From: Aequorivita marisscotiae | GTDB lineage: Bacteria; Bacteroidota; Bacteroidia; Flavobacteriales; Flavobacteriaceae | DNA: 64,000 bases | Direction of reading: 5' to 3' | NCBI RefSeq assembly: GCF_029814825.1 | Contig: NZ_CP122379.1 | Coordinates: forward strand, 2,294,001 to 2,358,000 | In this document: positions 12,155 to 39,628 of the stretch, in pieces | Layout of the letters: each line of letters starts with the position of its first letter | How positions within the stretch are numbered: the first letter of the stretch is position 1 | The notes under the pieces: model-generated | What the model was told of the DNA's origin: nothing | The model's input: the letters and a program-made list of their open reading frames with translations, nothing else | Database searches by the model: none | Program-made: the position numbers and the translations under genes

Positions 12155-12161
12155 ATAAATA

Positions 12162-12686: not shown

Positions 12687-12890
12687 AATCATAAAAATCA
12701 CTTCGGCGGTTTTTAACGGGTTGCTCAACTTTTTATTTTCCCGAAATCAATTTTTAGCATCCTTTTTATTGTACTGTTTTCCACGACTGTAGATTTAAAG
12801 TACCGGAATCATCATTAATTTAAGTATCTTCAAATTTTTTAAATTTCCGCGATAGCGAATGAGTTCGTAAAGCGTAATTTTGTCATCGTT

Positions 12891-14144
12891 TTGAAAAATA
12901 ATCACAACATATTCTTCTTTTTAATTTTATTGTTTTCCACAGCATCCATGTGGTCTAAAACAATAACGGTTTGTGCTACCTGCCCTGTAAAATCTATTAA
13001 CGAAGCTATTCTTCAAGCCGAAGAGGGCGATACCGTTTTTGTAAAAAAAGGCATATACAAAGAAGCCAATATAAAAATTAATAAAAGCATTGCTCTAATT
13101 GGAGAAAATTTACCCACAATTGACGGGGAGAAGAAGGGTGAGATTATTACCATTGGTACTGATAACGTAACCTTAGATGGCTTTAAGATTATAAACGTAG
13201 GGGTTAGTTATACAACAGATTATGCGGCAGTTCGCGTGGTAAACAGTGAAGGTTTTGTTATAAAAAATTTAGAACTCGAAAAGCTTTTCTTCGGAATTTA
13301 CCTTCAAAAATCTAACAATGGCAAAGTACTTAACAATAAGGTGCGGGGAGAGGCGGTAACCGAATTTAATTCAGGAAATGCAATTCATCTTTGGTATTGT
13401 AAAAATGTAGAAGTTCGCGGAAATGATGTGCAGCGGGTGCGCGACGGAATCTATCTTGAATTTTCAGATGAAATTTCAATCAAGGATAATTTCAGTAAAA
13501 ATAATGTGCGCTATGGGCTTCATTTTATGTTTAGCAATAACAATTATGTAATCAATAATGTTTTTGAAACCAACGGCGCCGGAATAGCTTTAATGTTTTC
13601 AAAGTTTATGGAAGTTGAAAACAATATTATAAAGAAAAACTGGGGCACCGCAGCCTATGGGTTATTGTTAAAGGAAGTAAACGATGCCAACATTAAAAAC
13701 AACCTGTTTTTTGAAAATACGGTAGGTATAACTGTAGAGGGGAGCAACCGTTTGCAATACGCAAATAACGATTTTACCAGTAATGGCTACGCAATAAAAG
13801 TGAAGGGCGCATGCTACGAAAACCACGTTATTGATAATAATTTTCTTTATAACTCTTTCGATATATCATACAACGGGCGGATAAACAACAATAAATTTAA
13901 CAACAATTATTGGAGCAATTATACGGGGTACGATTTAGACAAGAACGGCATTGGCGATGTGGCGTATCGTCCGGTAAAACTGTTTTCATATATAGTAAAC
14001 CGCACTCCGGAAACCATTATTTTAATGCGAAGCTTATTTATAGATATTATAGATTTTTCGGAAAAAGTTTCCCCGGTATTTACACCGGATGATTTAATGG
14101 ATGAAAATCCAAGAATGAAACAAATAGCTCATGATAGAAATTAG
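12891..14144 (+). CDS. nosD: NosD, periplasmic beta-helix protein for CuZ assembly
   Basis: A 417-residue exported protein with many right-handed beta-helix (pectin-lyase-like) repeats from about 60 to 340, rich in N-x-G and NNxF turns. The first in-frame initiator is TTG at 12891, which retains the signal peptide (IFFFLILLFSTASMWS). The next Met, at residue 20, would delete the signal, so TTG is favoured. The frame opens only at 12843 and contains no ATG before 12891. It overlaps nosF by 14 bases. NosD works with the NosFY ABC transporter in NosZ maturation. Confidence 0.92.
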   Translation: MKNNHNIFFFLILLFSTASMWSKTITVCATCPVKSINEAILQAEEGDTVFVKKGIYKEANIKINKSIALIGENLPTIDGEKKGEIITIGTDNVTLDGFKIINVGVSYTTDYAAVRVVNSEGFVIKNLELEKLFFGIYLQKSNNGKVLNNKVRGEAVTEFNSGNAIHLWYCKNVEVRGNDVQRVRDGIYLEFSDEISIKDNFSKNNVRYGLHFMFSNNNYVINNVFETNGAGIALMFSKFMEVENNIIKKNWGTAAYGLLLKEVNDANIKNNLFFENTVGITVEGSNRLQYANNDFTSNGYAIKVKGACYENHVIDNNFLYNSFDISYNGRINNNKFNNNYWSNYTGYDLDKNGIGDVAYRPVKLFSYIVNRTPETIILMRSLFIDIIDFSEKVSPVFTPDDLMDENPRMKQIAHDRN

Positions 14145-14841
14145 GGATTTATATAAAAAATTCGGTAAGAACGAAGTGCTTAAGGGCATCGACCTCGCTA
14201 TAAAAGAAGGCGGTATTTTTTCCATTCTCGGGCCTAACGGATCGGGAAAAACCACACTTATTAAAGCTATTTTAGGTATGGTTTTGCCAGATTCGGGTGA
14301 AATTTTCATTAATGGAAAGTCGTTGAGAAACAATTTTAAATATCGCGAAAAGATAGATTACCTACCGCAGATTGCAAACTTTCCCGGCAACCTAAAAGTG
14401 AATGAACTTATTGCCATGATAAAGGATTTAAGGGCTTCCGAGGCAACTAAAGACGAAGAGCTAATTGAACTTTTTAAGCTGCAACCCTTCCTTAATAAAC
14501 GATTGGTAAACCTCTCCGGAGGAACAAAACAAAAAGTAAACCTAGTGCTTACTTTTATGTTTGACAGTCCGTTAATAATTCTTGACGAACCTACCAGCGG
14601 CCTCGATCCTATTTCGCATTTGCGGCTAAAAAACTTAATTTTTGCCGAAAAGGAAAAAGGGAAAACAATTTTGGTAACCTCGCATATTTTGAGTTTTGTG
14701 GAAGAAATTGCCGACGAGATAGTTTTTCTGTTGGAAGGAAAAATTTATTTTAAGGGAAGTATCCCAGAATTAAAAGCGAAAACCGAACAACCCGATTTTG
14801 AACACGCTATAGCCTCCATTTTATCTGCTAGTTATGCTTAA
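14131..14841 (+). CDS. nosF: NosF, ABC transporter ATP-binding protein
   Basis: ATPase of the NosFY transporter required for CuZ maturation. Walker A GPNGSGKTT is near residues 35-43, the signature is LSGGTKQK (about 128-135), and LIILDEPTSGLDP follows as Walker B/D-loop. The C-terminal part ends in a short accessory helix. It overlaps nosD upstream (14 bp) and nosY downstream (8 bp), consistent with coupled translation. Confidence 0.95.
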   Translation: MIEIRDLYKKFGKNEVLKGIDLAIKEGGIFSILGPNGSGKTTLIKAILGMVLPDSGEIFINGKSLRNNFKYREKIDYLPQIANFPGNLKVNELIAMIKDLRASEATKDEELIELFKLQPFLNKRLVNLSGGTKQKVNLVLTFMFDSPLIILDEPTSGLDPISHLRLKNLIFAEKEKGKTILVTSHILSFVEEIADEIVFLLEGKIYFKGSIPELKAKTEQPDFEHAIASILSASYA

Positions 14842-15616
14842 AATATTAAAATACAGTTTTTACGATTTAATGCGAAGCCGCTGGAGCTACGTATATTTTC
14901 TGTTCTATTTACTGCTTGGCATCGTGTTGTTGTTTCTTAACAACGACCTTTCAAAAGCAGTTATAACGTTAATGAACGTAATCATTATTTTGGTGCCGCT
15001 TATTGGGACTATTTTCGGGGTGATGTATTATTACAATTCCCGCGAATTTACCGAACTGCTTTTGGCGCAACCCGTAAAACGAAGCTCCATTTTTTTGGGT
15101 CAGTATTTTGGAGTTGCAACCTCTTTATCAATGAGTTTGGTGATAGGCTTGGGAATGCCATTTGTTTTCTACGGAATTTTTAACAGTAACGCCATTTGGG
15201 ACTTTTCACTATTGCTAGTAACGGGGGCATTTTTAACCTTTATTTTTACCGCTTTGGCCTTTGTAATCGCGCTTTCCAACGAAAACAAAATAAAGGGGTT
15301 TGGGTACGCTATCTTACTTTGGTTGTTTATGGCGGTAATCTACGACGGTATCTTTTTAATGTCGTTATTGTATTTTGAAGATTATCCGTTAGATAAATTT
15401 TCCCTAATTGCCACGATGCTAAACCCAGTAGATTTATCGCGGGTATTGATACTTTTAAAGCTGGATATTTCGGCACTTTTAGGATATACCGGAGCCGTAT
15501 TTCAGAAGTTTTTTGGAACAAATTTCGGACTAATTTTATCGTTTGTAATGCTAATTGTTTGGGTGGTTGTGCCTACCTTCTTTATTTGGCGAATTGCAAA
15601 ACGGAAGGATTTTTAG
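14834..15616 (+). CDS. nosY: NosY, ABC-2 type permease
   Basis: Six-helix integral membrane partner of NosF, 260 residues. Helices lie at about 18-36, 40-62, 92-116, 125-147, 155-178 and 232-252. It opens with MLKILKYSFYDLMRSRWSYVYF, a common start for ABC-2 permeases. As last gene of the nos operon it overlaps nosF. No clear terminator follows before the convergent small gene at 15680. Confidence 0.93.
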   Translation: MLKILKYSFYDLMRSRWSYVYFLFYLLLGIVLLFLNNDLSKAVITLMNVIIILVPLIGTIFGVMYYYNSREFTELLLAQPVKRSSIFLGQYFGVATSLSMSLVIGLGMPFVFYGIFNSNAIWDFSLLLVTGAFLTFIFTALAFVIALSNENKIKGFGYAILLWLFMAVIYDGIFLMSLLYFEDYPLDKFSLIATMLNPVDLSRVLILLKLDISALLGYTGAVFQKFFGTNFGLILSFVMLIVWVVVPTFFIWRIAKRKDF

Positions 15617-16621: not shown

Positions 16622-18424
16622 ATGCAGACTACCAGTCCACACAGTTTTCATATTCCCGTAATGGGAATTGCTTTTACCATTGATTCGCCTATAAAAGTTG
16701 CTCATTTTGGTATAAATAGTACGCTTTCTATTATTGAAGATAATTTAATAGAGGTAATGCGAAAATACTACTACCAGCAAAATAACGAGCCCTATGTGCC
16801 TATTTCAGAAAAGGAACCGGATTCGCGGGCGAGACGCATTACCGATTATTTAAATTTAATGCAGCGAATTGTAACCTCTAAAATGGAGCGGTTAAAACAT
16901 TCAGCTTTTGAAACTGGTTCTGATATTGTGAAATATTTTGAAATGCTTCCAGATAGTAGTGTGTTGAAGGAAAAATACCATGAGTGGTTTTCGCTTTCTG
17001 ATAGCACAGAAAAGCAGAATGCCGAAAAATTGCTACGGGAAAGTTTGGTTCCCGGTGCTATTGAGGTTAATATTATGACCAAGGTAGATAAGGACCAACT
17101 AGACAAAAACAAAGAACCTATTGAAAACGGATCGGATGCTATTACGGCCTTAAAGGGATACGCAGATTGCAATTTAGGCAATTCGGCCGTTGTGCTGTCG
17201 GCGGGAATGAATCCGCGTTTGTACAATTATATGGAAGGCTTTACAGCGTTTGATGCTTATAAATTGGGTGGTTTTTATAAAAAGGTAATTATTAAGGTAA
17301 GCGATTACCGTTCGGCATTGATTCAAGGTAAATACTTGGCTAAAAAGGGAATTTGGGTAAGTGAATTTAGAATTGAATCGGGCTTAAATTGTGGCGGTCA
17401 CGTTTTTGCCACACAGGGTTTGCTTATGGGGCCGATTCTTCAAGAATTTAAGGAAAAGAAGCAAGAATTGCAGGATAGCCTATTTGAACTTTATAACCCC
17501 GCAATTAAGGCAAAAGGGAAGCCCTGTTTTGGCAAACCACATCCGATAAGGATTACCGTACAGGGTGGAATTGGAACCAGCGAAGAAGATACATTGCTAA
17601 AAAAGTATTACAACGTAGATGGTACTGGGTGGGGAACGCCATTTTTACTGTGTCCTGAAGCTACTACTGTAGATGAGAAAACCTTGGAGCTATTGGCAAA
17701 ATCTAAAGAAAACGATGTGGTTAGAAGTAAAGCCTCGCCATTGGGAGTTGAATTTAATTATTTAAGGGGCACCACCGCAGAAACGGAACGTTTAAACAGA
17801 ATTGGAAAGGATAAACCCGGTAGTCCGTGTACAGAAAAGCTATTGGAATCTAATACTGAATTTACAAAAACTCCAATTTGTACAGCTTCTTCCAAGTATC
17901 AAAAACTAAAATTAGCGCAGTTAAAGACTTTAAATATCTCAAAACAGGATTATGATAAACAAGTAGAAGACGTGTTAAGTAAAGAATGTCTTTGTATTGG
18001 GTTAAGCAACGCGGCACCAGCGCTTTACGAGGTGTCTTTTCTAAAAAAATTAACTGCCGTTACTATTTGTCCGGGGCCAAATATTATAAACTTCTCTAAA
18101 ACCACCAGCCTCCGCGAGATGACAGATCATATTTACGGTAGAGCGGATATTATGCAAAAGCCCAATCGCGCTGCATTATTTGTCACTGAACTTAGACTAT
18201 ATATTGACTTTCTAAAAAAAGAGATAGAGGGCGTTACTTCGCCTACTGTGCGCGACTATAAATCTTGGGATAAATTTAGCCAGAATCTATTGGATGGCAT
18301 TGAACACTATCAAAACTTGACGATAAATTATATTTTGGACAATGCTATAAAATTTAAAAGGGATTTAGATTTTGCCAAAGTTGAAATTTTAAAAGTTCGT
18401 GATTCTCAGTTGCAGTTGGGATAG
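16622..18424 (+). CDS. Conserved-looking 600-residue Cys-rich protein, unknown function
   Basis: Not assignable to a named enzyme. It has no signal peptide, so it is cytoplasmic. Nine Cys lie at about 183, 257, 302, 344, 403, 420, 456, 458 and 483, several in tight motifs (LNCGGH, KPCFGKPH, ECLCIG, TICPGPN). The segment VQGGIGTSEEDTLLKKYY (about 313-330), followed by GTGWGTPFLLCPEAT, resembles the phosphate-binding strands of FMN TIM-barrel enzymes such as nitronate monooxygenase. This is a resemblance only. The C-terminal 100 residues look helical. It stands alone between nos and nor, with a perfect Crp/Fnr-type palindrome upstream, so it probably belongs to the denitrification response. Confidence 0.7.
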   Translation: MQTTSPHSFHIPVMGIAFTIDSPIKVAHFGINSTLSIIEDNLIEVMRKYYYQQNNEPYVPISEKEPDSRARRITDYLNLMQRIVTSKMERLKHSAFETGSDIVKYFEMLPDSSVLKEKYHEWFSLSDSTEKQNAEKLLRESLVPGAIEVNIMTKVDKDQLDKNKEPIENGSDAITALKGYADCNLGNSAVVLSAGMNPRLYNYMEGFTAFDAYKLGGFYKKVIIKVSDYRSALIQGKYLAKKGIWVSEFRIESGLNCGGHVFATQGLLMGPILQEFKEKKQELQDSLFELYNPAIKAKGKPCFGKPHPIRITVQGGIGTSEEDTLLKKYYNVDGTGWGTPFLLCPEATTVDEKTLELLAKSKENDVVRSKASPLGVEFNYLRGTTAETERLNRIGKDKPGSPCTEKLLESNTEFTKTPICTASSKYQKLKLAQLKTLNISKQDYDKQVEDVLSKECLCIGLSNAAPALYEVSFLKKLTAVTICPGPNIINFSKTTSLREMTDHIYGRADIMQKPNRAALFVTELRLYIDFLKKEIEGVTSPTVRDYKSWDKFSQNLLDGIEHYQNLTINYILDNAIKFKRDLDFAKVEILKVRDSQLQLG

Positions 18425-18656: not shown

Positions 18657-19115
18657 ATGCTATCCAAACAACAAGCGCGGGCATTTTTCCTCGGTGGAAC
18701 GCTCGTAACATTCCTGATTTTTATTGGTCTTACCATTTACTCCTTTAGCGATGGAAACGACCAGACCAACTATGAAAACATTACCGAACAAGTAGTACGC
18801 GGTAAGGTTATCTGGGAGGAGAACAACTGCATGGGTTGCCACACCATTCTCGGCGAAGGTGGCTATTATGCCCCTGAACTTACCAAAGTTGTTGAACGTA
18901 GAGGCGAAGGTCTAATAAAAGCAATTCTTATGTCGCCCGTGCCTTGGGAGCCAAACGGTAGAAAAATGGTGGCTTATGGTTTCACGGCCGAAGAGGCCGA
19001 TGACGTCATCGCATTTTTCAATTGGATTGGCGAAATAGACTTAAATGGTTTTGACCGCATAGTATCGCCTTTAGCGAAAGACAAACAATTACTTAATAAC
19101 CAATCTGAAAATTAA
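18657..19115 (+). CDS. norC: Nitric oxide reductase subunit C
   Basis: Membrane-anchored cytochrome c subunit of cNOR, 152 residues. One N-terminal helix (about 9-29) is followed by a periplasmic haem domain with CMGCH at 58-62 inside the family motif CHTILGEGGYYAPELTK. The axial Met is probably in GRKMVAYGF. It passes electrons to NorB, whose gene starts 4 bp after this stop. Confidence 0.96.
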   Translation: MLSKQQARAFFLGGTLVTFLIFIGLTIYSFSDGNDQTNYENITEQVVRGKVIWEENNCMGCHTILGEGGYYAPELTKVVERRGEGLIKAILMSPVPWEPNGRKMVAYGFTAEEADDVIAFFNWIGEIDLNGFDRIVSPLAKDKQLLNNQSEN

Positions 19116-19119
19116 TATT

Positions 19120-20469
19120 ATGAAATATAAATCTCAAAAAGTAGCTTATTGGTTTTTCGCACTTTCAATGCTGTTACTCGTACTTCAAATAACCTATGGT
19201 TTTATTATGGGTTTTGCCCGTATCGGGATGGATGGGCTTCACGAATTTATTCCTTTTAATACGGCGCGTGCCGTTCACACCAATCTCTTGGTGGTTTGGT
19301 TGCTCTCCGGGTTTATGGGGGCTGCTTACTATATTATTCCTGAAGAGGCCCAGCGCGAACTCGTAAGTGTAAAGTTGGCGTATGTACAGCTTATTTCACT
19401 TGCGGCGGTTGGCGTGGCCGCAATTGTGGGCTATCACTTTAACTGGTGGGAAGGCCGTAAATTTTTGGAAATTCCGCGGCAGCTTGACTATTTGGTAGTT
19501 TTAAACGTGCTGCTGTTTTTAGCATTAATACTTCTGACACTTTTTAAAGGAAAACGAAAAACTACCACAGCATTAGTGCTCACAATGGGGCTGCTATTTG
19601 CGGCATTATTATACATTCCCGGAATGTTGCCGTTTGACAGTCAGGTAACCGACAGCTTTTTTCGCTGGTGGGTAGTTCATCTTTGGGTTGAAGGCGTTTG
19701 GGAACTTATTATGGGCGGTATTCTGGCATTCCTATTAATTAAACTTACGGGAGTTGACCGAGAAGTTATTGAAAAATGGCTTTATGTAATCGTCGGCCTA
19801 ACCTTTCTTTCTGGAGTACTGGGCACCGGCCACCACTACTATTATATTGGTGTAAATAAAATCTGGCTGATCGTTGGTGGAATTTTCTCGGCCTTGGAAC
19901 CTTTGGCCTTCCTTGCAATGGCACTTTTTGCGGTAAATATGTACCGCAAAGGAGAGAAAAAACACCCTAATAAAATTGCCTTATTCTGGACGTTGGGTGC
20001 CGCAATTGTATCGTTTGTGGGCGCAGGACTTTTAGGGTTTGCACACACGCTGCCACAAACAAACCTTTATACACACGGAACCTTGGTAACTGCAATGCAC
20101 GGACACTTGGCCTTTTGGGGAGCTTATGCAATGATTGTTTTAGCAATTATAAGCTATAGTTTGCCGAATATGACAGGGCGTAAGTATTATGACGGCATAC
20201 GTGGCCGCGTGGCGTTCTGGACATCAAATATTGGAATGATAGGAATGACGATGGCTTTTGGTGTAGCGGGCGTAGCACAGGTTTATTTGGAACGAAAATT
20301 TGGCATGGAATTTATGGCAGTTCAAAAGGAAATTAGCATCCATTTTGTAGTGTTGATTATCTGCGCCAGTTTATTTGCCGTGGGAATTTTAACCTATATC
20401 TATGACTTTTACAAACACGGTCGTCCAACAGATGAAGCTTTGGAAAAAGCTGAACACGAATATTTATAA
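19120..20469 (+). CDS. norB: Nitric oxide reductase subunit B (catalytic)
   Basis: Twelve-helix haem-copper-superfamily enzyme that reduces 2 NO to N2O. Expected ligands are all present: low-spin haem b His53 and His329, haem b3 His327, FeB His187, His238 and His239. The nearby glutamates Glu191, Glu195 and Glu260 are also present. The length of 449 residues is typical. It forms a unit with norC, and norQ and norD follow after a 142-bp gap. Confidence 0.97.
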   Translation: MKYKSQKVAYWFFALSMLLLVLQITYGFIMGFARIGMDGLHEFIPFNTARAVHTNLLVVWLLSGFMGAAYYIIPEEAQRELVSVKLAYVQLISLAAVGVAAIVGYHFNWWEGRKFLEIPRQLDYLVVLNVLLFLALILLTLFKGKRKTTTALVLTMGLLFAALLYIPGMLPFDSQVTDSFFRWWVVHLWVEGVWELIMGGILAFLLIKLTGVDREVIEKWLYVIVGLTFLSGVLGTGHHYYYIGVNKIWLIVGGIFSALEPLAFLAMALFAVNMYRKGEKKHPNKIALFWTLGAAIVSFVGAGLLGFAHTLPQTNLYTHGTLVTAMHGHLAFWGAYAMIVLAIISYSLPNMTGRKYYDGIRGRVAFWTSNIGMIGMTMAFGVAGVAQVYLERKFGMEFMAVQKEISIHFVVLIICASLFAVGILTYIYDFYKHGRPTDEALEKAEHEYL

Positions 20470-20611: not shown

Positions 20612-21436
20612 ATGTCCACAATAGATACTAATATCATAAGATCAGAAACGAAGGTTTCTTATAGAACCATACCCTTTTACAAACCCATAGATCGCGAAGT
20701 TGAAGTTTTTCAGCACGCGTTTAAAAACAAATTGCCCATTTTGCTGAAAGGCCCCACGGGAACTGGAAAAACCAGGTTTGTAGATTTTATGGCGCATCAA
20801 TTGGAGCAGTCGCTTTTAACGGTTTCCTGTCATGAGGAAACTTCTTCCACAGACCTTATTGGCCGCTATATAATCAAAGGCGCCGAAACTATTTGGGTGG
20901 ACGGGCCGTTGACCAAAGCGGTAAAAGAAGGTGCAATTCTATATTTAGATGAAATCGCCGAAGCTCGCCCAGACGTTGTGGTTGCGATACATTCACTCAC
21001 AGATCACAGAAAGGAATTGTATATAGACAAACTGGGCATTACCGTAGAAGCCCATCCGGATTTTATGCTCGTGGCTTCCTTTAATCCAGGATATCAAAAG
21101 GGTTTTAAAGAGCTGAAACCTTCTACCCGCCAACGTTTTGTGGCACTTTCGTTTCAATATCCCACTGCAAAGGATGAAACCGAAATTGTGCACACGGAAA
21201 CTGGTTTGGACAAAGACACCTCCAAAAAATTGGTAAACATTGCCAATAAAATTCGCAATCTAACTGAATTGGGACTTACCGAAACCGTCTCCACCCGTTT
21301 GTTGGTAGATGCGGCAATGCTTATAAACAGCGGTCTTCCCAAACGACTTTCCGTAAAAGTGGCAATTGTGGAACCATTGACCGATGATCTTGAAATTACC
21401 CAAGCACTAACAGATCTGTGCGATTTGATGATTTAA
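20612..21436 (+). CDS. norQ: NorQ, MoxR/CbbQ-type AAA+ ATPase
   Basis: AAA+ ATPase of 274 residues that, with NorD, inserts FeB into cNOR. Walker A GPTGTGKTR is near residues 47-55, Walker B AILYLDEIAEARPDV near 109-123, and the sensor region LVASFNPGYQKGFKELKPSTRQRFVAL near 150-176. The C-terminal CbbQ helix bundle is present. norD begins 9 bp downstream. Confidence 0.93.
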   Translation: MSTIDTNIIRSETKVSYRTIPFYKPIDREVEVFQHAFKNKLPILLKGPTGTGKTRFVDFMAHQLEQSLLTVSCHEETSSTDLIGRYIIKGAETIWVDGPLTKAVKEGAILYLDEIAEARPDVVVAIHSLTDHRKELYIDKLGITVEAHPDFMLVASFNPGYQKGFKELKPSTRQRFVALSFQYPTAKDETEIVHTETGLDKDTSKKLVNIANKIRNLTELGLTETVSTRLLVDAAMLINSGLPKRLSVKVAIVEPLTDDLEITQALTDLCDLMI

Positions 21437-21445
21437 GAAAAAACC

Positions 21446-23215
21446 ATGTTCGAACCCGATGAGTTTATCTTTGCCAAGGTTGCAAAATTTCTAAAGCGCA
21501 GAAAAAAAAGTGCTAAGGAAGCAATTGCGCACACCGTAAAACTTTGTGAAATAAAGCCTCGGCTCACTTTGATGGCACGTGCCGTAACCGGTCATCCCAT
21601 CGAAATTTTTGAGGCAGAGCAGGAGGGTGGTTATAAAAACAACGCTTTCTTTTTGCCCGAACGATTTTCAGGGTTTGATACTTCGGAAAAAAATCTGGCC
21701 TTTTATATTTTTAGGACGCTATATCTTTCAATTCAAAAAAGCTTTCAGCTTAATTATGAATTGGGCGAGGAGCATACCTTGGAAGAGGCGCGGCAAATTT
21801 CCGAAGAAAATGCTGAAAAAGTATTAACTGAAATTTTTAATCAATTTCCCGGAACGGAGCAGATTTATAACGAACTGAAACTTCACTTTGAAAAAAACGC
21901 TTCGGAAAAAAATCCGCCCGACTATTCCTATATTTATGGGAAATGGATGGCGAATTCGCCTGAAACACCAAAGAAAAAAGTACTTCAGAATATTTCAGAA
22001 AAAGTAAAAACCGCCATTGAAGAAGAGATAAATACTATTTTGAAAGCCAATGCGGTAGAAGAAATAAAATCTATTGAAGTTGACAAAAAAGCACAGGAAG
22101 ATTATGTGCTCACCCACAACTTTGAAAAAGCCGAAACCGCAGAAGAGTGGGAAGGCGGTTGGCGCGATTTTGATGGCGATGACGAGCTGGACGACCACGC
22201 AAATGCGCTGGAAGATTTAAATATGAAACAAACCGTGCGGGTAGACGATCCCACGCATTCTATTTATCAGGCCGAGTTTATTGAAAATACAACCATTTCT
22301 GAAAGTGCGGAAATAGAAAATGCCAACTACAACATTTTGTATGACGAATGGGATTATTCCAAACGCACTTATAAAACAGATTTTTGCAAGGTTTATCCGC
22401 AAACACAAACCGAAACCGATTCTGATTATTATATAAATACTTTAAGGGAACACGCAACAACCTTGATGGGGCTTCGGAAAATGCTTACTTCGGTAAATAA
22501 TAAATACCAACAGCAACGCAGGCAGTTGCAGGGCGAGGAGTTTGACCTTGATGCGCTCACAGATTTGTATGTGGACGTTCATTCGGGCCACACGCCTTCG
22601 GAAAATATCTATCTCTCAAAACGCAAAAAAGAAAAAGACCTTTCTATTTTGATGCTTTTGGACAGCAGCCTTTCCAGCGATGGCTATGCTGCAGACAATC
22701 GGGTAATAGATGTGGAAAAACAGGTTTCAATCATTTTTGGGGAAATTTTGGAGGAATTCAACGTAGATTTTTCTATTGCCGGTTTTCATTCCAAAACCCG
22801 GAACCACAGCACATATTTAACCTTAAAAAATTTTGATGAGCCGTGGCAGAAGGCAAAGCAAAAAGTTGGCGCCTTGCAACCCAGCGGTTATACGCGAATT
22901 GGTACGGCATTGCGACATTCGGGTGCTTTGCTGGATAAACGTGACACAAAAAACAAATGGGTAATTCTTATTTCAGATGGAAAACCCAATGATTACGATA
23001 AGTACGAAGGCAAATACGGCATAAATGATGTAAAGCAGGCGCTACGTGAATTGAACCAGCGGAATATAAATTCGTATGCGTTGGCCATTGAAGCGCAGGC
23101 AAAATATTATTTGCCGCAGATGTTTGGGCAGAACCATTTTCAGATTTTGACTACACCGGTAGAACTGCTGCAATCGCTTGTAAAATTGTACGATAAAATA
23201 AAACACCAAAGTTAA
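21446..23215 (+). CDS. norD: NorD, von Willebrand factor A protein
   Basis: Cytoplasmic partner of NorQ, 589 residues. The N-terminal half is helical and acidic. The C-terminal half (about 400-589) is a vWA domain with MIDAS motif DSSLS and the later Thr and Asp positions (GYTRIGTAL, LISDGKPNDYDKYEG). The pairing with norQ is diagnostic for the cNOR maturation system. It ends 1 bp before the norE-like gene. Confidence 0.92.
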   Translation: MFEPDEFIFAKVAKFLKRRKKSAKEAIAHTVKLCEIKPRLTLMARAVTGHPIEIFEAEQEGGYKNNAFFLPERFSGFDTSEKNLAFYIFRTLYLSIQKSFQLNYELGEEHTLEEARQISEENAEKVLTEIFNQFPGTEQIYNELKLHFEKNASEKNPPDYSYIYGKWMANSPETPKKKVLQNISEKVKTAIEEEINTILKANAVEEIKSIEVDKKAQEDYVLTHNFEKAETAEEWEGGWRDFDGDDELDDHANALEDLNMKQTVRVDDPTHSIYQAEFIENTTISESAEIENANYNILYDEWDYSKRTYKTDFCKVYPQTQTETDSDYYINTLREHATTLMGLRKMLTSVNNKYQQQRRQLQGEEFDLDALTDLYVDVHSGHTPSENIYLSKRKKEKDLSILMLLDSSLSSDGYAADNRVIDVEKQVSIIFGEILEEFNVDFSIAGFHSKTRNHSTYLTLKNFDEPWQKAKQKVGALQPSGYTRIGTALRHSGALLDKRDTKNKWVILISDGKPNDYDKYEGKYGINDVKQALRELNQRNINSYALAIEAQAKYYLPQMFGQNHFQILTTPVELLQSLVKLYDKIKHQS

Positions 23216-23216
23216 T

Positions 23217-23801
23217 ATGAAAACTACGGCAACAATAGATTACAAAAACATATTTTACCCACCAGGCGGCATATTGCTGTGGATTGTTATTTATTTGGAA
23301 CTGGTAACTTTTGGCATTGCATTGGTTTTTATGGCGATAAATGCAAAAGCCGAACCCGAAATATTTCACGAATCGCGCTTAATGCTCAATACGGCTTATG
23401 GCGCAATAAATACCGTATTTTTACTTAGTAGCGGATGGTGCATGGCGCAGTCGGTTCATTTTTTGAAACGTCGAAATTTTAGTAAAAGCAAATTGTTTTT
23501 AAAGCTAACCATGCTTGGTGGCGTACTTTTCTTGGTATTGAAAGGAGTGGAATATTACGATAAAGTGGAAGCCGGCCTTACTATCGGCTACAATGCCTTC
23601 TTTGGTTATTATTGGATGCTTACGCTATTTCACCTAATTCACGTTGTAGTGGGCATCATTATTTTGCTTGTTTTGGGAAGAACCCTCAGCAAAAAACCCG
23701 AAACCCTAAAAGTAGAAGATTATGAATCGGGCGCGGCCTTTTGGCATATGTGCGATTTGATTTGGCTACTTCTTTTTCCAATAATTTATTTATTATTCTA
23801 A
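23217..23801 (+). CDS. NorE-like cytochrome c oxidase subunit III family protein
   Basis: A 194-residue membrane protein of the CoxIII family with about five helices. The family features include GWCMAQSVHFLKRRNF near 65-80 and YYWMLTLFHLIHVVVGII near 125-142. Small CoxIII homologues in nor operons are called NorE and improve NO reductase function without being core subunits. It lies between norD and a norF-like gene with almost no spacing. Confidence 0.88.
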   Translation: MKTTATIDYKNIFYPPGGILLWIVIYLELVTFGIALVFMAINAKAEPEIFHESRLMLNTAYGAINTVFLLSSGWCMAQSVHFLKRRNFSKSKLFLKLTMLGGVLFLVLKGVEYYDKVEAGLTIGYNAFFGYYWMLTLFHLIHVVVGIIILLVLGRTLSKKPETLKVEDYESGAAFWHMCDLIWLLLFPIIYLLF

Positions 23802-24733: not shown

Positions 24734-26791
24734 TCACCTCCCAATCCGCACTCGCGCATCTACCGCGGTGATGGCGCGTTGTGTGCCAATTAATGGGTTG
24801 ATGTCCATTTCAATAATTTCGGTGGCAGCTTGGACCAATGCCGAGAGCCGCTGGATAATATCTATAAATATTTTTTCATTCGCTCCTTTTTTCCCTCGTG
24901 CGCCTTGAATTAATTTGTATCCGCGGAGCGACTGCACCATATTTTCGGCCTCGTTTTTAGAGATGGGGCTTAAGCCCGCAGAAACATCATTGAGCACTTC
25001 AATAAAAATTCCGCCCAAACCGCAAAGAATGGTGTGGTTAAATCCGGGTTCCTTCATTACGCCCACAAACAATTCCAGCCCTACTAATTGAGGCTGCACC
25101 ATTACAGCAGTGGCCGAATCTATCTTCATCAATAAATCGAAAGTTTCGGCGGCTTCACCTTTATTGGCAATATTTAAAACCACGCCTTGGGCATCCGATT
25201 TGTGGAGTGGGCCAACCACTTTCATCACTACGGGAAAGTCTGTTGCTTCCATAGCTGCAAGCAATTTTTCTTTTGAATTTTCTACAATTTCATGAACCCG
25301 CGGAATTCCTGCTGCATCCAATAAATCTACGGTTTGTTTAGGAGAAAGATAGCCTTCAGTAGCGGTGTTGATGATTTTTCTAATACTTTCAATATCAATT
25401 TTTGGGAGAGATATTTTTTGCGATTGCGGCTCGGGTGTATTATAAACTTGTGCCAGAGCTTTTCCCAAAACCACTTCATCTGGAAAATGAATGTGTCCTT
25501 TCTTTAAAAAAGATTGAATTTCGCGTTGGGCGTTTACAACGGAAGGTAGAACCGGGAAAATTGGTTTGTTGCAAATTTCTAGTTTTACGCTTAAAACGTT
25601 GTACACATTTTCAACATCAAAGAGGCCTGCACTACCAAAAACTACGACCATAGCATCTATAGAATCAAATTTATGTTCGCAATAATCTATAATGATGCCC
25701 AACTGCTCGGCGGTTCCGGTTGCCAAAAAGTCTATGGGATTGGCAATTGAAGAACCGGGATAAAGAAACGATTTCAATTTTTCTGCTTCGGGACCTGAAA
25801 TTTCGGGAACTTTTAATCCGCCTTTTGAAAGCTGATCTGCCAACATTACCGCCGAACCCCCTGCGTGGGTTATAATTGCAATGTTTTTTCCTTTTAACTT
25901 TTTATAGTTGAAAATAGCTGCTACGCTCAACAATTGCTCTCTACTGCTGCAATAAACAATGCCCGCTTTGTGAAACAGCGCGCGCACCGTCATATCGCTA
26001 CTGGCAATTGCTCCGGTGTGCGAAGTTGCGGCGCGACTGCCTTCTGCGGTGCTTCCCGCTTTTATGGCTGCTATTTTTGCCCCTTTTTTTATAAGAGAGG
26101 AGGCGTGTTTTAGCAATTTTTGTGGATTGGAAATGGTTTCGAGATACAGCAGTTTTATCAAGGGATCTTTTTCGGCATTAAAATTTTCATCCATATATTC
26201 CAAAATATCCTCAACGCCTGTTTGGGCTGCATTTCCAACGGAAAACACATTTGCAAAAGTAACGCCCAAGGCCATTCCCGCTTCCATGATAAAAACCGCC
26301 GTTGCGCCCGAGCCCGAGATGAGGTCGCAACCTTTTGGATTGAAAGGTGGCACCGGAGCCGTAAAAACGCCTTTGTAATTTTCGGTAATTACGCCAATGC
26401 AGTTTGGGCCAATCAGGCAACCATTAGCCGAATTGACCGTCGAAACTATCTGCTGCTCGCATTGTTTTCCCTGTTCGCCCGCTTCGCCAAAACCTGCGGA
26501 AATGATTATAAAAGCCTTCGTATTTTTTTCTTCGGCTAAAATTTTTACCGTTTCGGGACAATATTTTGCCGGAATGGCAAGAATGGCGAGGTCGGTTTGG
26601 GGAATTTCCATTACTTCAGAAAAACTTTTTATGCCCTGAACTCTTTCTTCCTTTGGATTCACCGCGTAAAGATTTCCCGCAAACCCTCCAGCAAGAATGT
26701 TTTTCAGCATATTGCCACCGGGTTTTTTTGAGTCGTTGGAAGCGCCAATTACAGTGATGCTTTTTGGGTTAAGGAGTTGTTTGTTTACCAT
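24734..26791 (-). CDS. ADP-forming acyl-CoA (acetate-CoA) ligase, fused alpha-beta
   Basis: Interconverts acyl-CoA + ADP + Pi with the acid + CoA + ATP. Of 685 residues, the N-terminal CoA-binding Rossmann domain starts SITVIGASNDSKKPGGNMLKN (about 11-31). A succinyl-CoA-ligase-like domain with phospho-His region SHTGAIASSD follows near 260, and an ATP-grasp domain lies from about 470. The family includes acetate-, pimeloyl- and other acyl-CoA synthetases; the substrate is not determined. It is transcribed divergently from the second norC-like gene. Confidence 0.88.
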   Translation of the reverse strand: MVNKQLLNPKSITVIGASNDSKKPGGNMLKNILAGGFAGNLYAVNPKEERVQGIKSFSEVMEIPQTDLAILAIPAKYCPETVKILAEEKNTKAFIIISAGFGEAGEQGKQCEQQIVSTVNSANGCLIGPNCIGVITENYKGVFTAPVPPFNPKGCDLISGSGATAVFIMEAGMALGVTFANVFSVGNAAQTGVEDILEYMDENFNAEKDPLIKLLYLETISNPQKLLKHASSLIKKGAKIAAIKAGSTAEGSRAATSHTGAIASSDMTVRALFHKAGIVYCSSREQLLSVAAIFNYKKLKGKNIAIITHAGGSAVMLADQLSKGGLKVPEISGPEAEKLKSFLYPGSSIANPIDFLATGTAEQLGIIIDYCEHKFDSIDAMVVVFGSAGLFDVENVYNVLSVKLEICNKPIFPVLPSVVNAQREIQSFLKKGHIHFPDEVVLGKALAQVYNTPEPQSQKISLPKIDIESIRKIINTATEGYLSPKQTVDLLDAAGIPRVHEIVENSKEKLLAAMEATDFPVVMKVVGPLHKSDAQGVVLNIANKGEAAETFDLLMKIDSATAVMVQPQLVGLELFVGVMKEPGFNHTILCGLGGIFIEVLNDVSAGLSPISKNEAENMVQSLRGYKLIQGARGKKGANEKIFIDIIQRLSALVQAATEIIEMDINPLIGTQRAITAVDARVRIGR

Positions 26792-26879: not shown

Positions 26880-26923
26880 CTGATAAATATCATATTTCAG
26901 GCAGGAGGGAAGGGGTATTTTTA
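26880..26923 (+). promoter_or_regulatory. Crp/Fnr-type site plus -7 element for norCB-like/nadAB
   Basis: CTGATAAATATCAT at 26880-26893 and -7-like TATTTTTA at 26916-26923, with spacing 29.5 bp. Just upstream, AAGATGTTTAAGTCCT (26859-26874) resembles the palindrome seen at norC and the first Rrf2 gene. The first gene starts at 26946. Confidence 0.72.
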
Positions 26924-26945: not shown

Positions 26946-27377
26946 ATGGTCTCCAATCCAAGGCCTTATATTTTCGTGATGGCGGTTTTACTCGTCGTTT
27001 TCAGTATTTATAATTATATAATTTATAATACTGATGGGTACGTGGCCGTAGAAAAATTATCCCCTGTGGCAGTAAAAGGCCAGCAATTGTTCCAGAGTAA
27101 CCGTTGTTGGTCCTGTCATCAATTGTACGGCTTGGGTGGTTATTTGGGTCCGGATTTAACAAACGTATATTCCGCGGAAGGCAAAGGGGCAAATTACATT
27201 AAAGCGTTTTTAAACAGCGGGGTGAAGAGTATGCCGCAATTCCATTTTACCGAAGAAGAGAAGGATGCTTTGGTGGAGTATTTAAAACAGGTGGATGAAA
27301 CGGGCATTTACCCAAATTACGAAGCCGAGATTGAAGCATCTGGCTGGGTAAAAATAAAGTATAGAAATGAAGAATAA
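26946..27377 (+). CDS. NorC-like membrane-anchored cytochrome c (second copy)
   Basis: A 143-residue protein laid out like NorC: one N-terminal helix (about 8-27), then a monohaem domain with CWSCH at 54-58 in the context CHQLYGLGGYLGPDLTNVY. A probable Met ligand lies in KSMPQF near residue 95. It differs from the first NorC in the loop and lacks the CHTILGEG motif. It overlaps the following NorB-like gene by 11 bp, so the two are surely partners. The haem domain is intact, so it can transfer electrons. Confidence 0.85.
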   Translation: MVSNPRPYIFVMAVLLVVFSIYNYIIYNTDGYVAVEKLSPVAVKGQQLFQSNRCWSCHQLYGLGGYLGPDLTNVYSAEGKGANYIKAFLNSGVKSMPQFHFTEEEKDALVEYLKQVDETGIYPNYEAEIEASGWVKIKYRNEE

Positions 27378-28692
27378 AGTGCCGTTCTATTTTTTGCTGT
27401 TTGCCCTAACCGCCCTGTTTTTAGGGATGCTCTTTGGGCTTACGGCTTCGTTCCAGTATTTGTTGCCAGAGTTTTTAAAGGAAACGGTTCCCTTCTCCAA
27501 ACTGCGACCCTTTCACGTTACTTCTGAAACTTCGTGGATCGTGCTCGCCGCCACGGGCAGTATCTATTTTTTTATCGCTTCGGTTGAGAAGTTTGAGCTC
27601 TTTTCGCGCAAATTGCAATCGCTGCATTTCCTACTTTTTCTGTTTACGGGCGTTGCTATTTATTTCTCTTTCGCTTTCGATTATACCGAGGGGCGGGAGT
27701 ATTTCGCTTTTAAACCTATTTTAATGATTCCGATATTATTAGGTTGGATATTATTTGGAATTAATTATTTTAAGACGCTATACGCCAATATGAAGGGTTG
27801 GCCCGTCTATTATTGGATGTGGGGCACGGGCATCGTTTTTATGTGCTACCATTTGATGGAGGCGCATTTTTGGCTGTTCGATTTTTTTAGATTGAATTTT
27901 ATAAAAGATTTTGCCGTACAGTGGAAATCTACCGGCTCGTTTACCGGTTCGTGGAATATGCTAGTTTATGGCATCTCCATTTATCTGATGTCTAAAATTA
28001 AAAAGGATACGGACGTTGCCACGAATAAATTGGCTTTTTTCTTCTACTTTTTGGGGTTGACCAATTTAATGTTTGGATGGGCGCACCACACTTATTTATT
28101 GCCAACCCAGCCCTGGATTCGGTATGTAGCTTACGGAATTAGTATGACGGAGTGGATTGTTTTGGCTTCGATTATTTACAATTGGAAACGTTCGGTTTTA
28201 AAGGTTGAAAGCGAAAATCACCCTATGGCGTATCGCTTTTTGCTAGCTACCGATTTTTGGATTTTTATAAATATAATCTTAGCGCTTCTGTTCTCCATTC
28301 CGGCCATTAATTTCTTTACCCATGGCACGCACGTTACCGTGGCACATTCCATGGGCACTACCATTGGCATTAACACAACGATACTTTTTTCGGCCTTGTT
28401 TTTTATTGCGCATTATGTTCGGCCACAGCTAAAAACCGACACCAAATGGGTTAAGCGCGGGTTTGTTGCTTTCAATATTTCGCTGTTTATCTTTTTTGTT
28501 TCGTTGATAATTGCTGGGGCTAAACGCAGTTATTGGATGTACGTTTCAAAAGAAGGGTCGTTTGCTGAAATGCAGGATTCGGTCGTGCCGTATTACATTT
28601 CATTTTTCATCTTCGGAATAGGGATTTTTGTTTCGCTTTTAATTGTAGCGACGCCTATTTTCAAAGCTTTGCTTCAAAAAATAAAATCATAA
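27367..28692 (+). CDS. Divergent NorB-like haem-copper superfamily protein with altered metal sites
   Basis: A 441-residue protein with about 12 helices, colinear with NorB. Retained: His50 (low-spin haem), the His240-His241 pair of FeB, and His327 (haem b3 position, in [11 protein letters not shown]). Changed: the first FeB His (NorB His187) aligns with Thr189, the glutamates Glu191/Glu195 align with Thr193/Asn197, and the second low-spin haem His329 aligns with Met329. An unusual helix YHLMEAHFW (161-169) offers His162, Glu165 and His167. It may be a new NOR-like enzyme, an NO sensor or an assembly factor. nadA overlaps its stop. Confidence 0.75.
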
Positions 28693-29618
28693 TGGATTTA
28701 CATCAAAAAATAACTGAACTGAAAAAGCAGAAAAACGCCGTCATCCTCGCGCACTATTATCAAGTGCCCGAAATTCAGGAAGTGGCAGATTATGTGGGCG
28801 ATAGCTTGGGACTGTCGCAAAAAGCTGCCGAAACCGATGCCGAAATGATCGTCTTTGCTGGCGTGCATTTTATGGCAGAAACGGCCAAAATTTTGAACCC
28901 CGATAAAAAAGTTTTGTTGCCCGATTTAATGGCGGGTTGTTCGTTGGCAGATTCGTGTCCCGCCGACGCTTTTCGCACTTTGGTGAAAGCACATCCAGAT
29001 CACGAGGTGATAACGTATGTGAATTGTTCTGCGGAAGTAAAAGCCTTGAGCGATATTATTTGCACCTCTTCCAACGCCGAAAAAATAGTGAATTCGGTGC
29101 CAAAGGATGTGCCAATTATTTTTGCGCCCGATAAAAATCTGGGAAAATATATTCAGAAAAAAACCGGACGTAAAATGCTGCTTTGGGATGGCGCATGTAT
29201 TGTACATGAGGCTTTTTCGATGGATAAACTGTTGAAACTTTACAAAGAAAATCCGGGTTCAAAAATTATTGCGCACCCCGAAAGCGAGAGCCATATTTTG
29301 GAAACGGCAACTTATGTAGGCTCCACCGCCGGAATGATAGATTATGTGAAAAAACATCCGGCGGAAAAATTTATTGTCGCCACGGAAGCGGGTATTCTTC
29401 ACAAAATGCAACAGGAAGTGCCTCAGGCCGTACTAATACCTGCTCCCGCTGAAGAAGACAACACCTGCGCTTGCAGCGAATGTGCGTTTATGAAAATGAA
29501 CACCTTGCAAAAATTGTACGACTGCTTGCTGAATGAAAATCCGCAGATTGAAGTTACCGCAGAAATTCGGAAAAAAGCCATTGTGCCCATTGAGCGCATG
29601 TTGGAATTATCAAAATAG
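28692..29618 (+). CDS. nadA: Quinolinate synthase
   Basis: [4Fe-4S] enzyme that condenses iminoaspartate with dihydroxyacetone phosphate to quinolinate in NAD biosynthesis. The 308-residue protein has the tandem-repeat motifs [23 protein letters not shown] (17-39) and [16 protein letters not shown] repeats. Cluster Cys candidates are Cys83, Cys167 and Cys257/259/262 ([12 protein letters not shown]). It starts inside the stop of the NorB-like gene and ends at nadB. The order NorC-like, NorB-like, NadA, NadB forms one operon under the denitrification-type promoter. Confidence 0.95.
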
Positions 29619-29620
29619 TG

Positions 29621-31207
29621 ATGGAAACAAATTTTTTGATTATCGGGTCCGGAGCTGCAGGTTTAACACTTGCGGTAAAACTTGCTGCGAAATTTCCAAA
29701 GAAAAAAATAACAGTTGTTACAAAGGCCCACGTATCTGAATCGAATACGAAATACGCCCAAGGCGGGGTGGCAGCGGTATTCGATTTAAAAAAAGATTCT
29801 TTTCAAAAACATATTGACGATACGTTACGCGCAGGCGATGGACTTTGCGATGAGGCGGTGGTTGAAATGGTGATTACCGAAGGACCCGAACGGCTTCGCG
29901 AACTGATGGAGTGGGGTGCCAAATTTGATACCGATGCCAACGGCCAACTCACTTTGGGCAGGGAGGGCGGTCATTCAAAATTTAGGGTAATTCATCATAA
30001 AGATACTACGGGCAATGAGATTGAGCGCACACTTTTGGAACGTAGCAACAAACTGCAGAATATTACGATGCTTCCACATCATTTTGCCATTGATTTAATA
30101 ACGGAGCATCATTTTTCTGAAGGGAAAAACGAAAATCTTTCGTGTTATGGAGCTTATGTTTTGGACCAGATTTCAGGAAATATTTTTACAATTAAAGCAG
30201 ATTGCACTACGTTGGCTTCGGGCGGAATGGGGCAAGTTTACGGCCATACCACCAATCCCACTGTTGCAACCGGCGACGGTATTGCAATGGCGTATCGGGC
30301 AACAGCGAGAATACAGAATATGGAATTTATCCAGTTTCATCCCACAGCACTTTACGATGGAAAAAATCAATCTTCTTTTTTAATTTCGGAAGCGGTACGG
30401 GGGTTTGGAGCTTTTCTTCGTAATAAAAACGGAGAGCGATTTATGTTTAATTACGATGCTCGAGGCGAATTGGCATCGCGCGATATTGTTTCGCGCGCCA
30501 TCGATTCAGAAATGAAAAATTCTGGCGATGACTGTGTTTACTTGGATTGTACCCATTTGAACATCGACGATTTCAAAAAACACTTTCCGAATATTTATGA
30601 AACTTGTTTGCAGCGAAATAAAAATATTGCGAAGGATTGGATTCCGGTAGTGCCAGCATCGCATTATTTGTGCGGCGGGGTGGTTGTGGATGTGGATGGC
30701 AGAACTTCTTTACAAAATCTTTTTGCTTGCGGAGAATGTTCGTACACAGGTTTGCACGGCGCTAATAGGCTGGCATCCAACTCGTTGTTAGAGGCATTGG
30801 TTTATGCAGATAGAATTTTTAAATACCTCTGTAAACACCAGCCCTGGCAAACGACCAAAGACATTCCGGAATGGAATGATGCAGGGACGGTTTTATTGAA
30901 GGATGTTGAAATTCTTCAACAGAAAACGGTCCAATTACAATCCCTAATGCGGCGATTTGCGGGTGTGGTTCGTAATAATAAAGATTTAAAAAAAGCATCC
31001 ATTCAACTTGAAATGTTGTATTTTGAAGTGGAGGCACTTTACCAAAAACACAAACTAAACACAAGTCTTTCAGAGCTTCGGAATATGGTAAACGTGGCCC
31101 ATTTAATTATTCAGCAATCATTAATTCGTAAAGAAAACCGCGGTGGATATTTTAATGAAGATTATAATAAAGAATCTGTAGAAAATATAGTAAACGACAA
31201 AATATAG
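29621..31207 (+). CDS. nadB: L-aspartate oxidase
   Basis: FAD enzyme that makes iminoaspartate for NadA, using O2 or fumarate as acceptor. The 528-residue protein has the dinucleotide fold LIIGSGAAGLTLAVKLA at the N terminus and GRDGH-like/HREGG segments (REGGHSKFRVIHHKD, about 108-122). HPTALY and the HANRLASNSLLEALVYA motif of the succinate-dehydrogenase/aspartate-oxidase family follow. The ATG at 29621 lies 2 bp after the nadA stop; a GTG at 29618 is a less likely start. Its ability to run without O2 would suit denitrifying growth. Confidence 0.95.
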   Translation: METNFLIIGSGAAGLTLAVKLAAKFPKKKITVVTKAHVSESNTKYAQGGVAAVFDLKKDSFQKHIDDTLRAGDGLCDEAVVEMVITEGPERLRELMEWGAKFDTDANGQLTLGREGGHSKFRVIHHKDTTGNEIERTLLERSNKLQNITMLPHHFAIDLITEHHFSEGKNENLSCYGAYVLDQISGNIFTIKADCTTLASGGMGQVYGHTTNPTVATGDGIAMAYRATARIQNMEFIQFHPTALYDGKNQSSFLISEAVRGFGAFLRNKNGERFMFNYDARGELASRDIVSRAIDSEMKNSGDDCVYLDCTHLNIDDFKKHFPNIYETCLQRNKNIAKDWIPVVPASHYLCGGVVVDVDGRTSLQNLFACGECSYTGLHGANRLASNSLLEALVYADRIFKYLCKHQPWQTTKDIPEWNDAGTVLLKDVEILQQKTVQLQSLMRRFAGVVRNNKDLKKASIQLEMLYFEVEALYQKHKLNTSLSELRNMVNVAHLIIQQSLIRKENRGGYFNEDYNKESVENIVNDKI

Positions 31208-38413: not shown

Positions 38414-39628
38414 TTGATTAATTTAAAAAAACATATTGGCATTGCTCTGGCGTACTTCTTCATTGTAGCGCTAATGGGTATTTTGCTTCGCTTTTATTTT
38501 GTAACCTCACTTCCTTTTAATTATAAATTTTTACTTCACGCACATTCGCATACTGCACTTTTAGGATGGATTTATTTGGGATTAACTACCTTAATTTACA
38601 GAATATTTTTAGTCGGAGCCCAGAAACATAAACGGTATAAATATATTTTTCTCTTTACAAATATTTGTATTGTTGGAATGATGGTAACCTTTCCCTTTCA
38701 AGGGTATGCGCTTTATTCAATTATTTTTTCAACTTTATTTTTATTTGCTTCGTATTGGTTTTCATGGTTTGCCATAAGGCAGGTTCCCGAGCACTTTAAA
38801 AAGCGCTTTTCCTGGAAACTTATAAAAACGTCGTTATGGTATTTGGTTTTTTCCAGCATTGGTCCGTGGACCATCGGGGGAGTAATGGCCACCTTAGGAC
38901 CGGAATCTATTTGGTATAAAACTTCAATCTATTTTTATCTTCACTTTCAGTATAACGGCTGGTTTATTTTAGCGCTGTTGGGAGTGCTATTTTATATTTT
39001 TGAAGAAAATGGGGTGCAGTTTAAGCAAGAAAAACTAACCTCGTTTTTTATGCTTATAAACTTTGGCGTGCTTTTTACCCTTTTTTTATCTGTGCTTTGG
39101 TTTGTACCCCCAACCGTTTTTTACATTTTAGGATTGATGGGCGCCTTAGCACAACTATTGGCATTTTATGAACTCTATTTGTTGCTAAAGGGCAATTTTA
39201 AAATTTTGCAGTTAACTTTTAGTTCTCGTGCATTTTTTCTGTTGAAGCTGGCAGCAACATTGTTTTTTGTAAAACTTTTTATGCAGATTTTTTCCGCATT
39301 TCCGTACTATGCTACTTTGGTATATCAACTAAAAGATTTTGTAATTGGTTACCTGCATCTTGTTTTTCTGGGTATTGTTATCCCTACACTTTTGGCATTT
39401 TTACAGTACTTTAAGCTTTTAAATATTCCTAAAAGTTTTCTTTGGCTATTTATATTTGGGCTGGCAACTACAGAGGCTTTAATATTTTATAAAGCTCTGG
39501 CAGTGTGGTTGGGGCTTCCATTCTTTCGGGATTTTTATATTTATTTGGCGGTTTTAAGTTGCCTTTTTCCTGTTGCAACTGGTATTTTATTTTTTAAACA
39601 CCTCAAAAGTTTTTATCTTTCAGATTAA
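38414..39628 (+). CDS. Polytopic membrane protein with conserved-looking His (haem-copper/NnrS-like)
   Basis: A 404-residue protein with about 11-12 helices. Membrane-embedded His occur in HAHSHTALLGW (helix 2, residues about 43-53), YLHFQYNGW (middle) and YLHLVFLG (late). This pattern recalls haem-copper oxidase subunit I and NnrS proteins, but the ligand set is incomplete and no FeB-type HH pair is seen. It starts with TTG at 38414; the next Met (residue 21) would remove half of helix 1. A -7-like TAATTTTA lies at 38402-38409. It sits between ric and the cbb3 operon, so a role in haem, copper or NO handling is plausible. Confidence 0.7.
   Translation: MINLKKHIGIALAYFFIVALMGILLRFYFVTSLPFNYKFLLHAHSHTALLGWIYLGLTTLIYRIFLVGAQKHKRYKYIFLFTNICIVGMMVTFPFQGYALYSIIFSTLFLFASYWFSWFAIRQVPEHFKKRFSWKLIKTSLWYLVFSSIGPWTIGGVMATLGPESIWYKTSIYFYLHFQYNGWFILALLGVLFYIFEENGVQFKQEKLTSFFMLINFGVLFTLFLSVLWFVPPTVFYILGLMGALAQLLAFYELYLLLKGNFKILQLTFSSRAFFLLKLAATLFFVKLFMQIFSAFPYYATLVYQLKDFVIGYLHLVFLGIVIPTLLAFLQYFKLLNIPKSFLWLFIFGLATTEALIFYKALAVWLGLPFFRDFYIYLAVLSCLFPVATGILFFKHLKSFYLSD

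Follow-up and report, generated by a model that had tools for sequence, protein, structure and literature searches.

A NorCB-like gene pair of Bacteroidota with altered haem and FeB ligand positions

The haem-copper oxidase superfamily is marked by a signature of six histidines, two of which bind the low-spin haem, one haem b3 and three the FeB or CuB metal (PMC3413370, available text). In the NO reductase cNOR, FeB is inserted by NorQ and NorD, and without them cNOR is haemylated but FeB-less; qNOR binds FeB without these helpers (PMC9976466, in the portion available). NO dismutases (NODs) are relatives of qNOR in which one FeB histidine is replaced by asparagine and one glutamate by glutamine (available text of PMC3413370). 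The classes eNOR, sNOR, gNOR, nNOR and bNOR are described, in the available portions of PMC8756737 and PMC11388526, as related to B-family oxidases, and the first three have a cupredoxin as second subunit (PMC8756737). Here we compare with these systems a gene pair from the 3.45 Mb genome of Aequorivita marisscotiae which encodes a NorB-like and a NorC-like subunit; in the titles and abstract beginnings of the literature searched, no paper on this family was found.

A NorCB-like pair in a denitrification region

The window, i.e. the whole stretch of 64,000 nucleotides that was analysed, contains the pair together with a canonical set of denitrification genes:

26946..27377, + strand: NorC-like membrane-anchored cytochrome c, 143 aa, with CxxCH and a conserved Met
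27367..28692, + strand: NorB-like haem-copper-fold subunit, 441 aa (PF00115, 101.5 bits, cut-off 34.8)
18657..20469, + strand: canonical norC and norB, used for comparison (NorB at 19120-20469)
20612..23801, + strand: norQ, norD and norE
8181-15616: nosZ with nos accessory genes
50534-52000, - strand: nirK-type protein ending in a cytochrome c domain (PF00034 at 387-468)

The two open reading frames of the pair overlap by 11 bases, and the gene order is norCBQDE, a divergent acyl-CoA ligase gene, the NorC-like gene, the NorB-like gene, and then nadA and nadB. Two Rrf2 regulators and RIC are also encoded in the window. COX1 (PF00115) is the only domain matched in the NorB-like subunit, and its score above the cut-off places the protein in the haem-copper oxidase superfamily by sequence, compared with 209.3 bits for the canonical NorB of the window; the NorC-like subunit matches cytochrome c. 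The sole NCBIfam match of the NorB-like subunit is the cbb3 oxidase subunit CcoN, at 36 bits versus a cut-off of 583, and in a profile search of solved structures the cNOR NorB chains 4xyd and 3o0r ranked first, followed by cbb3 subunits. In annotation by homology such proteins could be labelled NorB or a subunit of cbb3.

Relatives were collected by a scan of genome contigs (tblastn, E <= 1e-3), which returned 420 stretches encoding a relative of the NorB-like subunit, the best 80 of which were fetched. By title these 80 are nearly all from Bacteroidota, the exceptions being two metagenome-assembled genomes (MAGs), one with the title Chlorobiota (L048) and one with Woeseia (L099), and the closest named relatives are from Aequorivita (96%). 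From the 101 extracted proteins we dropped a canonical norB (L002) and three disrupted copies (L019, L021, L049). Only two of the 16 loci L003-L018 were kept because of their near-identity, and two identical rows were merged into one, which left 82 distinct NorB-like proteins. The intact NorC-like partner proposed in the first-pass annotation of this DNA was confirmed: among the best 80 of the 420 stretches the NorC-like gene lies directly upstream in 79, and in the remaining one (L080) the contig starts inside the NorB-like gene. CxxCH and the methionine are conserved in the partner, as in the cytochrome c subunit of cNOR, and the distances within the two protein families correlate at 0.89 over 78 loci, a value not corrected for shared ancestry.

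Gene clusters found near the NorB-like gene in 81 stretches (the 80 loci and the window) are nadA (46), nadB with a thioredoxin-like protein (43), Rrf2 (38), norD (27), norE (26), RIC (25), norQ (22), a 600-aa protein without a Pfam match (20; in the window at 16622-18424, + strand), a Crp-like protein (19) and HCO404 (18). The Crp-like assignment is based on a 50-residue fragment which matches cNMP_binding below its cut-off. In the window, nadA and nadB (28692-31207, + strand; named by eye) directly follow the NorB-like gene, so that NAD synthesis genes accompany the pair here as well. A 404-aa membrane protein (38414-39628, + strand) adjoins RIC. It has no Pfam or NCBIfam match and was missed by a PF00115 search of its own genome; it was found in 46 of 50 genomes tested, and its His 44, 177 and 315 are invariant in 18 rows.

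Ligand positions and lineage

The NorB-like subunit aligns to the canonical NorB of the window with small gaps at 21% identity, and the ligand changes read from this gap-poor alignment by the first-pass annotation were all recovered. The first FeB histidine in sequence order (the third FeB histidine beside the HH pair) is Thr189, the NOR glutamates of helix VI are Thr193 and Asn197, and one low-spin haem histidine, the second of the HGH motif, is Met329; His50, His240-His241 and His327 are retained. In a joint alignment, columns 189 and 329 are histidine in all 25 references (11 cNOR, 10 qNOR, 3 cbb3 and 1 aa3) and in none of 20 NorB-like rows. Across the 82 family members, position 189 is Tyr (43), Gly (19), Thr (15), Asn (3) or Val (2), never His; position 193 is Val (56), Thr (25) or Ile (1), and positions 197 and 329 are Asn and Met in 82/82. 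Four of the six histidines of the superfamily signature are thus kept, the positions 189 and 329 being non-histidine in every member, and the three FeB histidines plus helix-VI glutamates which define cNOR are not found. Beyond the earlier claims, the third NOR glutamate is present as Glu262 in 82/82; since all 21 NOR references have Glu in this column, one NOR glutamate is retained.

Misalignment as the source of the missing ligands was checked and ruled out. No histidine occurs at positions 178-212 in any of the 82 members, so that realignment cannot bring back the FeB ligand and the third FeB histidine is not replaced elsewhere on helix VI; a histidine at 176 or 177, ahead of the helix-VI motif, is found in 28/82. 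Invariant in all members are His50, His87, Glu111, Glu165, Lys187, Asn197, His240, His241, Tyr243, Met260, Glu262, His319, His327 and Met329, and His322 is present in 81/82. Met329 shows the same degree of conservation as the haem ligands that remain and, judged from its column, would bind the low-spin haem. The invariance of Met260 might point to a His-His-Met copper facing haem b3. A second metal site formed by His162, Glu165 and His167, which had also been suggested, is rejected as a conserved site because only Glu165 is invariant (82/82, compared with 68/82 for His162 and 60/82 for His167).

For phylogenetic analysis, 20 of the 82 NorB-like rows were combined with the references and the seven trait columns were removed. 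The NorB-like subunits form a single clade (100/99) outside the clade of cNOR and qNOR (100/99), and neither the cNOR clade (97/91) nor the qNOR clade (100/99) includes them. A placement inside canonical cNOR, the check named in the first-pass annotation, was not obtained: a clade uniting the NorB-like subunits with cNOR was rejected by the AU test (p = 0.012; p = 0.0041 without aa3). The family remained a single clade when aa3 was left out, alone or together with either qNOR or cbb3; support for cNOR dropped to 59/36 once aa3 and cbb3 were removed, and the tree program warned of long branches. Taking the anatomy of the proteins and their lineage together, the pair is very probably derived from NorCB and represents a lineage of its own beside cNOR and qNOR.

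Compared with cNOR (NorCB; PDB 3o0r, 4xyd), the pair shares the fold, the NorC-like partner and the columns of His50, the HH pair, the haem b3 histidine and Glu262, but it lacks the third FeB histidine and the helix-VI glutamates, has a methionine for a low-spin haem histidine, forms a separate clade and occurs without norD where norB is absent. The same columns are retained relative to qNOR, another haem-copper NOR relative; unlike qNOR with its fused N-terminal domain, the NorB-like subunit (441 aa, COX1 only) has a separate second subunit, and it lies outside the qNOR clade. NODs, taken as described in the available text of PMC3413370, are also NOR relatives with an altered FeB ligand and glutamate, but in the NorB-like subunit the helix-VI histidine position is variable, two glutamates are lost, the low-spin ligand is changed and the partner is a cytochrome c. 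On this comparison by description, the NO-dismutase-like enzyme considered in the first-pass annotation is not supported, as the family lies outside the qNOR clade and has a changed low-spin ligand. The classes eNOR, sNOR, gNOR, nNOR and bNOR, compared by their description in the available portions of the cited papers, are likewise marked by active-site changes, but differ from the NorB-like family in their described kinship with B-family oxidases and, for the first three, in their cupredoxin second subunit. In cbb3 CcoN all six histidines are present in the rows compared, unlike in the NorB-like subunit, which branches apart from it. If our reading of the ligands is true, the pair represents a natural haem-copper-fold family in which the low-spin haem site and the FeB site are both re-ligated, and it provides a contrast set for the residues needed in NO chemistry.

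Distribution, FeB insertion genes and selection

The NorB-like gene was found in 19 of 79 relatives (A. marisscotiae included) and in 16 of 393 genomes of the order; with two genomes shared, this amounts to 33. Counts of nosZ and norB refer to 80 genomes, these 33 and 47 hand-chosen genomes without the gene, and thus to a non-random sample; norD, qNOR, nirK, nirS and HCO404 were counted in 50 of the 80. nosZ is present in 28/30 genomes with an intact NorB-like gene, in 1/3 with a broken copy and in 27/47 without the gene, and norB in 14/30, 0/3 and 8/47, respectively. For intact gene versus none this corresponds to p = 0.0006 (nosZ) and p = 0.009 (norB) with kinship ignored; outside the genus the link to nosZ is weak (11/13 versus 20/37, p = 0.09), and for norB p is 0.26. 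Matches to nirS (PF02239) were weak and restricted to 2/50 genomes. Presence and absence of the pair at a single site can be seen by comparing one locus with the order nosY, NorC-like, NorB-like, thioredoxin (L188) with another in which nosY is followed by thioredoxin (L190).

An obligate role as a subunit or chaperone of cNOR is rejected by the absence of norB from 16 of the 30 genomes with an intact NorB-like gene. Strict replacement of NO reductases by the pair is not supported either, because 14 genomes have both the intact gene and norB, and five genus members (G001, G008, G015, G023, G027) encode nirK and nosZ yet neither the NorB-like subunit nor cNOR or qNOR.

These counts bear on the possibility that the pair is a non-canonical NO reductase converting two NO to N2O at haem b3, with a two-histidine metal or none, which would make it the missing NO reductase of some Bacteroidota with nir and nos. 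The retained electron path and Glu262 are consistent with this, and so are the 17 genomes with the NorB-like gene (one copy broken) which lack cNOR and qNOR above the cut-off, 10 of them with nirK and 16 with nosZ. Two of the broken copies (G362, G405) sit in genomes bearing qNOR, which also speaks for a reductase, but both genomes have also lost nosZ, so that qNOR need not be the cause of the breakage. Against an NO reductase stand the five genus members with nirK and nosZ but without any of the three, and a third broken copy in a genome (G010) which has nosZ and nirK but neither norB nor qNOR. The NorB-like subunit also has neither a full set of FeB ligands nor the two glutamates of helix VI. 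In cNOR the helix-VI glutamates probably take part in catalysis and in the delivery of protons. To go by the title of a 2001 paper, two conserved NOR glutamates are reportedly essential for activity. We consider an NO reductase of this kind unlikely.

The distribution of norD, with its role in FeB insertion, also differs between the two NorB types. Among the 50 genomes examined norD coincides with norB, both being present in the same 22; all 19 genomes that have the NorB-like gene but no norB, among them the three with disrupted copies, lack norD. This pattern fits a NorB-like subunit that is not supplied with FeB in the way cNOR is, but a metal-free site does not follow from it, as qNOR has FeB without NorQ and NorD. 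Residues D220 and E222 (PMC9976466, in the portion available) were aligned by inference to a DRE motif, which is present in 10 of 11 cNOR rows, the exception being Thermus. At the putative NorD-docking columns placed by this inferred alignment, the NorB-like subunits have V, I, Y, L, F or M at position 217 in 77/82 and D or E at position 215 in 42/82.

A decaying norB copy, or an artefact of alignment, would be another explanation for the lost ligands, and disrupted copies do occur in 3 of the 33 genomes (G010, G362, G405). However, the 82 members share the same new invariants and form their own clade (100/99), no histidine at 178-212 is available to a shifted alignment, and dN/dS of the NorB-like gene against eight Aequorivita orthologues is 0.029-0.061, which indicates purifying selection (0.014-0.030 for norB in six pairs); the values are rough, since dS is saturated (> 1.7) in several of the NorB-like pairs. 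A decaying paralogue is rejected on these grounds, and we regard decay or artefact as extremely improbable. The claim that the protein cannot be a standard NO reductase was borne out, with the third FeB histidine and both helix-VI glutamates missing in 82/82; with the ligand loss fixed in all members and the gene under purifying selection, the protein is not a canonical NO reductase and not a copy in decay.

The qNOR-bearing genomes with broken copies, G362 and G405, belong to one genus and lack nosZ; the disrupted gene lies about 13 kb from a qNOR gene in both (L186, 1494-2949 and 15864-18107; L187, 3566-4611 and 17198-19444). Additional haem-copper reading frames of about 580-600 aa in L182-L185 (G025, G001, G175, G277) are cbb3-like by eye, judged by a Tyr six residues before HH. 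Two of them encode a 603-aa cbb3-like subunit I beside Rrf2 genes (L182, 3653-5464, - strand; L183, 5754-7565, - strand), and both genus members with this reading frame lack norB, one also the NorB-like gene.

NO handling and upstream sites

The neighbouring nor, nos, RIC and Rrf2 genes provide a setting that points to NO, and we put the chance that NO is the substrate of the pair at roughly even. The retained sites for haem c, haem b and haem b3, together with the constant partner, imply electron transfer. We favour, with a probability of about 0.45, a cytochrome c-coupled haem b3 complex which deals with NO although it has no normal FeB, and which protects the nos and denitrification system. 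The NorC-like subunit would carry haem c and exchange electrons with the periplasmic cytochrome c pool. From there electrons would pass to a low-spin haem b, presumably held by His50 and Met329 in place of the two histidines seen in all references, and on to haem b3. A methionine ligand is expected to raise the potential of haem b. Haem b3, on His327, might then bind NO and turn it over without a standard FeB, next to the two-histidine remnant of the FeB site at 240-241 and the retained Glu262. NO may be either reduced or oxidised, and the pair may yet prove to be a new NOR class, one of the options listed in the first-pass annotation. The complex would limit the NO to which NosZ and NO-sensitive iron enzymes are exposed, including in strains that have neither cNOR nor qNOR.

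An NO oxidase or dioxygenase is a rival explanation in which haem b3 would convert NO, with O2 or water, to nitrate or nitrite and trade electrons one at a time with the cytochrome c pool; neither FeB nor many protons would be needed. The loss of FeB and the helix-VI glutamates with retention of haem b3 and the electron path would suit such an enzyme, as would, by general chemistry, a methionine ligand that raises the haem b potential. A dioxygenase would be of little use at the low O2 suggested by the nos setting, and we rate this explanation as quite unlikely. A sensor, as raised in the first-pass annotation, or an NO buffer or assembly aid would work without turnover. Two ligands are gone and Rrf2 and Crp-like regulator genes lie near many loci, which agrees with sensing, but the domain search found no added signalling domain in either subunit, and a cytochrome c partner encoded at 79 of 80 loci speaks for electron flow; the 16 of 30 intact-gene genomes without norB speak against a dedicated cNOR helper. 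A role of this type seems rather improbable.

The favoured NO-handling complex makes the pair a candidate for NO handling in some Bacteroidota which have nir and nos without recognised NO reductases. Among 20 MAGs with class II nosZ, norBC or norZ was reported in none, and nir or, by that paper's wording, nar genes in 7 (PMC9306079, available text). Tentatively, the pair may constitute a new haem-copper-fold class with a His/Met low-spin haem, a two-histidine or metal-free site facing haem b3 and a function in NO handling in Bacteroidota which reduce nitrite and N2O but lack cNOR and qNOR.

Upstream of the NorC-like gene an FNR-like palindrome was found post hoc:

26881..26892, + strand: TGATAAATATCA, FNR-like palindrome, 54 bases before the NorC-like start

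This site also lies between the NorC-like gene and a divergent gene (24734-26791). The core TGATNNNNATCA occurs four times in the window, at 8002 (before the nos cluster), 16551 (before the 600-aa gene), 26881 (before the NorC-like gene) and 2683 (inside a reading frame), compared with a mean of 1.1 in shuffled sequences, four of 100 of which reached four; the first three sites are also beside divergent genes. A search for TTGATN4ATCAA with up to two mismatches gave no site before norC or nirK of the window. In the family, a strict FNR box was absent upstream of the NorC-like gene (0/79 loci; 0/67 after thinning Aequorivita to 3), the box with one mismatch was not enriched (2/67 versus 31/592), and an NsrR-like pattern occurred in 1/79. 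The shorter FNR-like core, picked in a palindrome scan made once the strict box had failed, is present upstream of the NorC-like gene in 20/67 loci (thinned in the same way) versus 62/592 other genes (p = 4.5e-5). Because the core was chosen after this failure and the one-mismatch box is not enriched, a link to FNR, and the core as a regulatory site, is suggestive only. In the window the FNR-like core also lies 60 bases before the start of the gene for the 600-aa protein (16622-18424).
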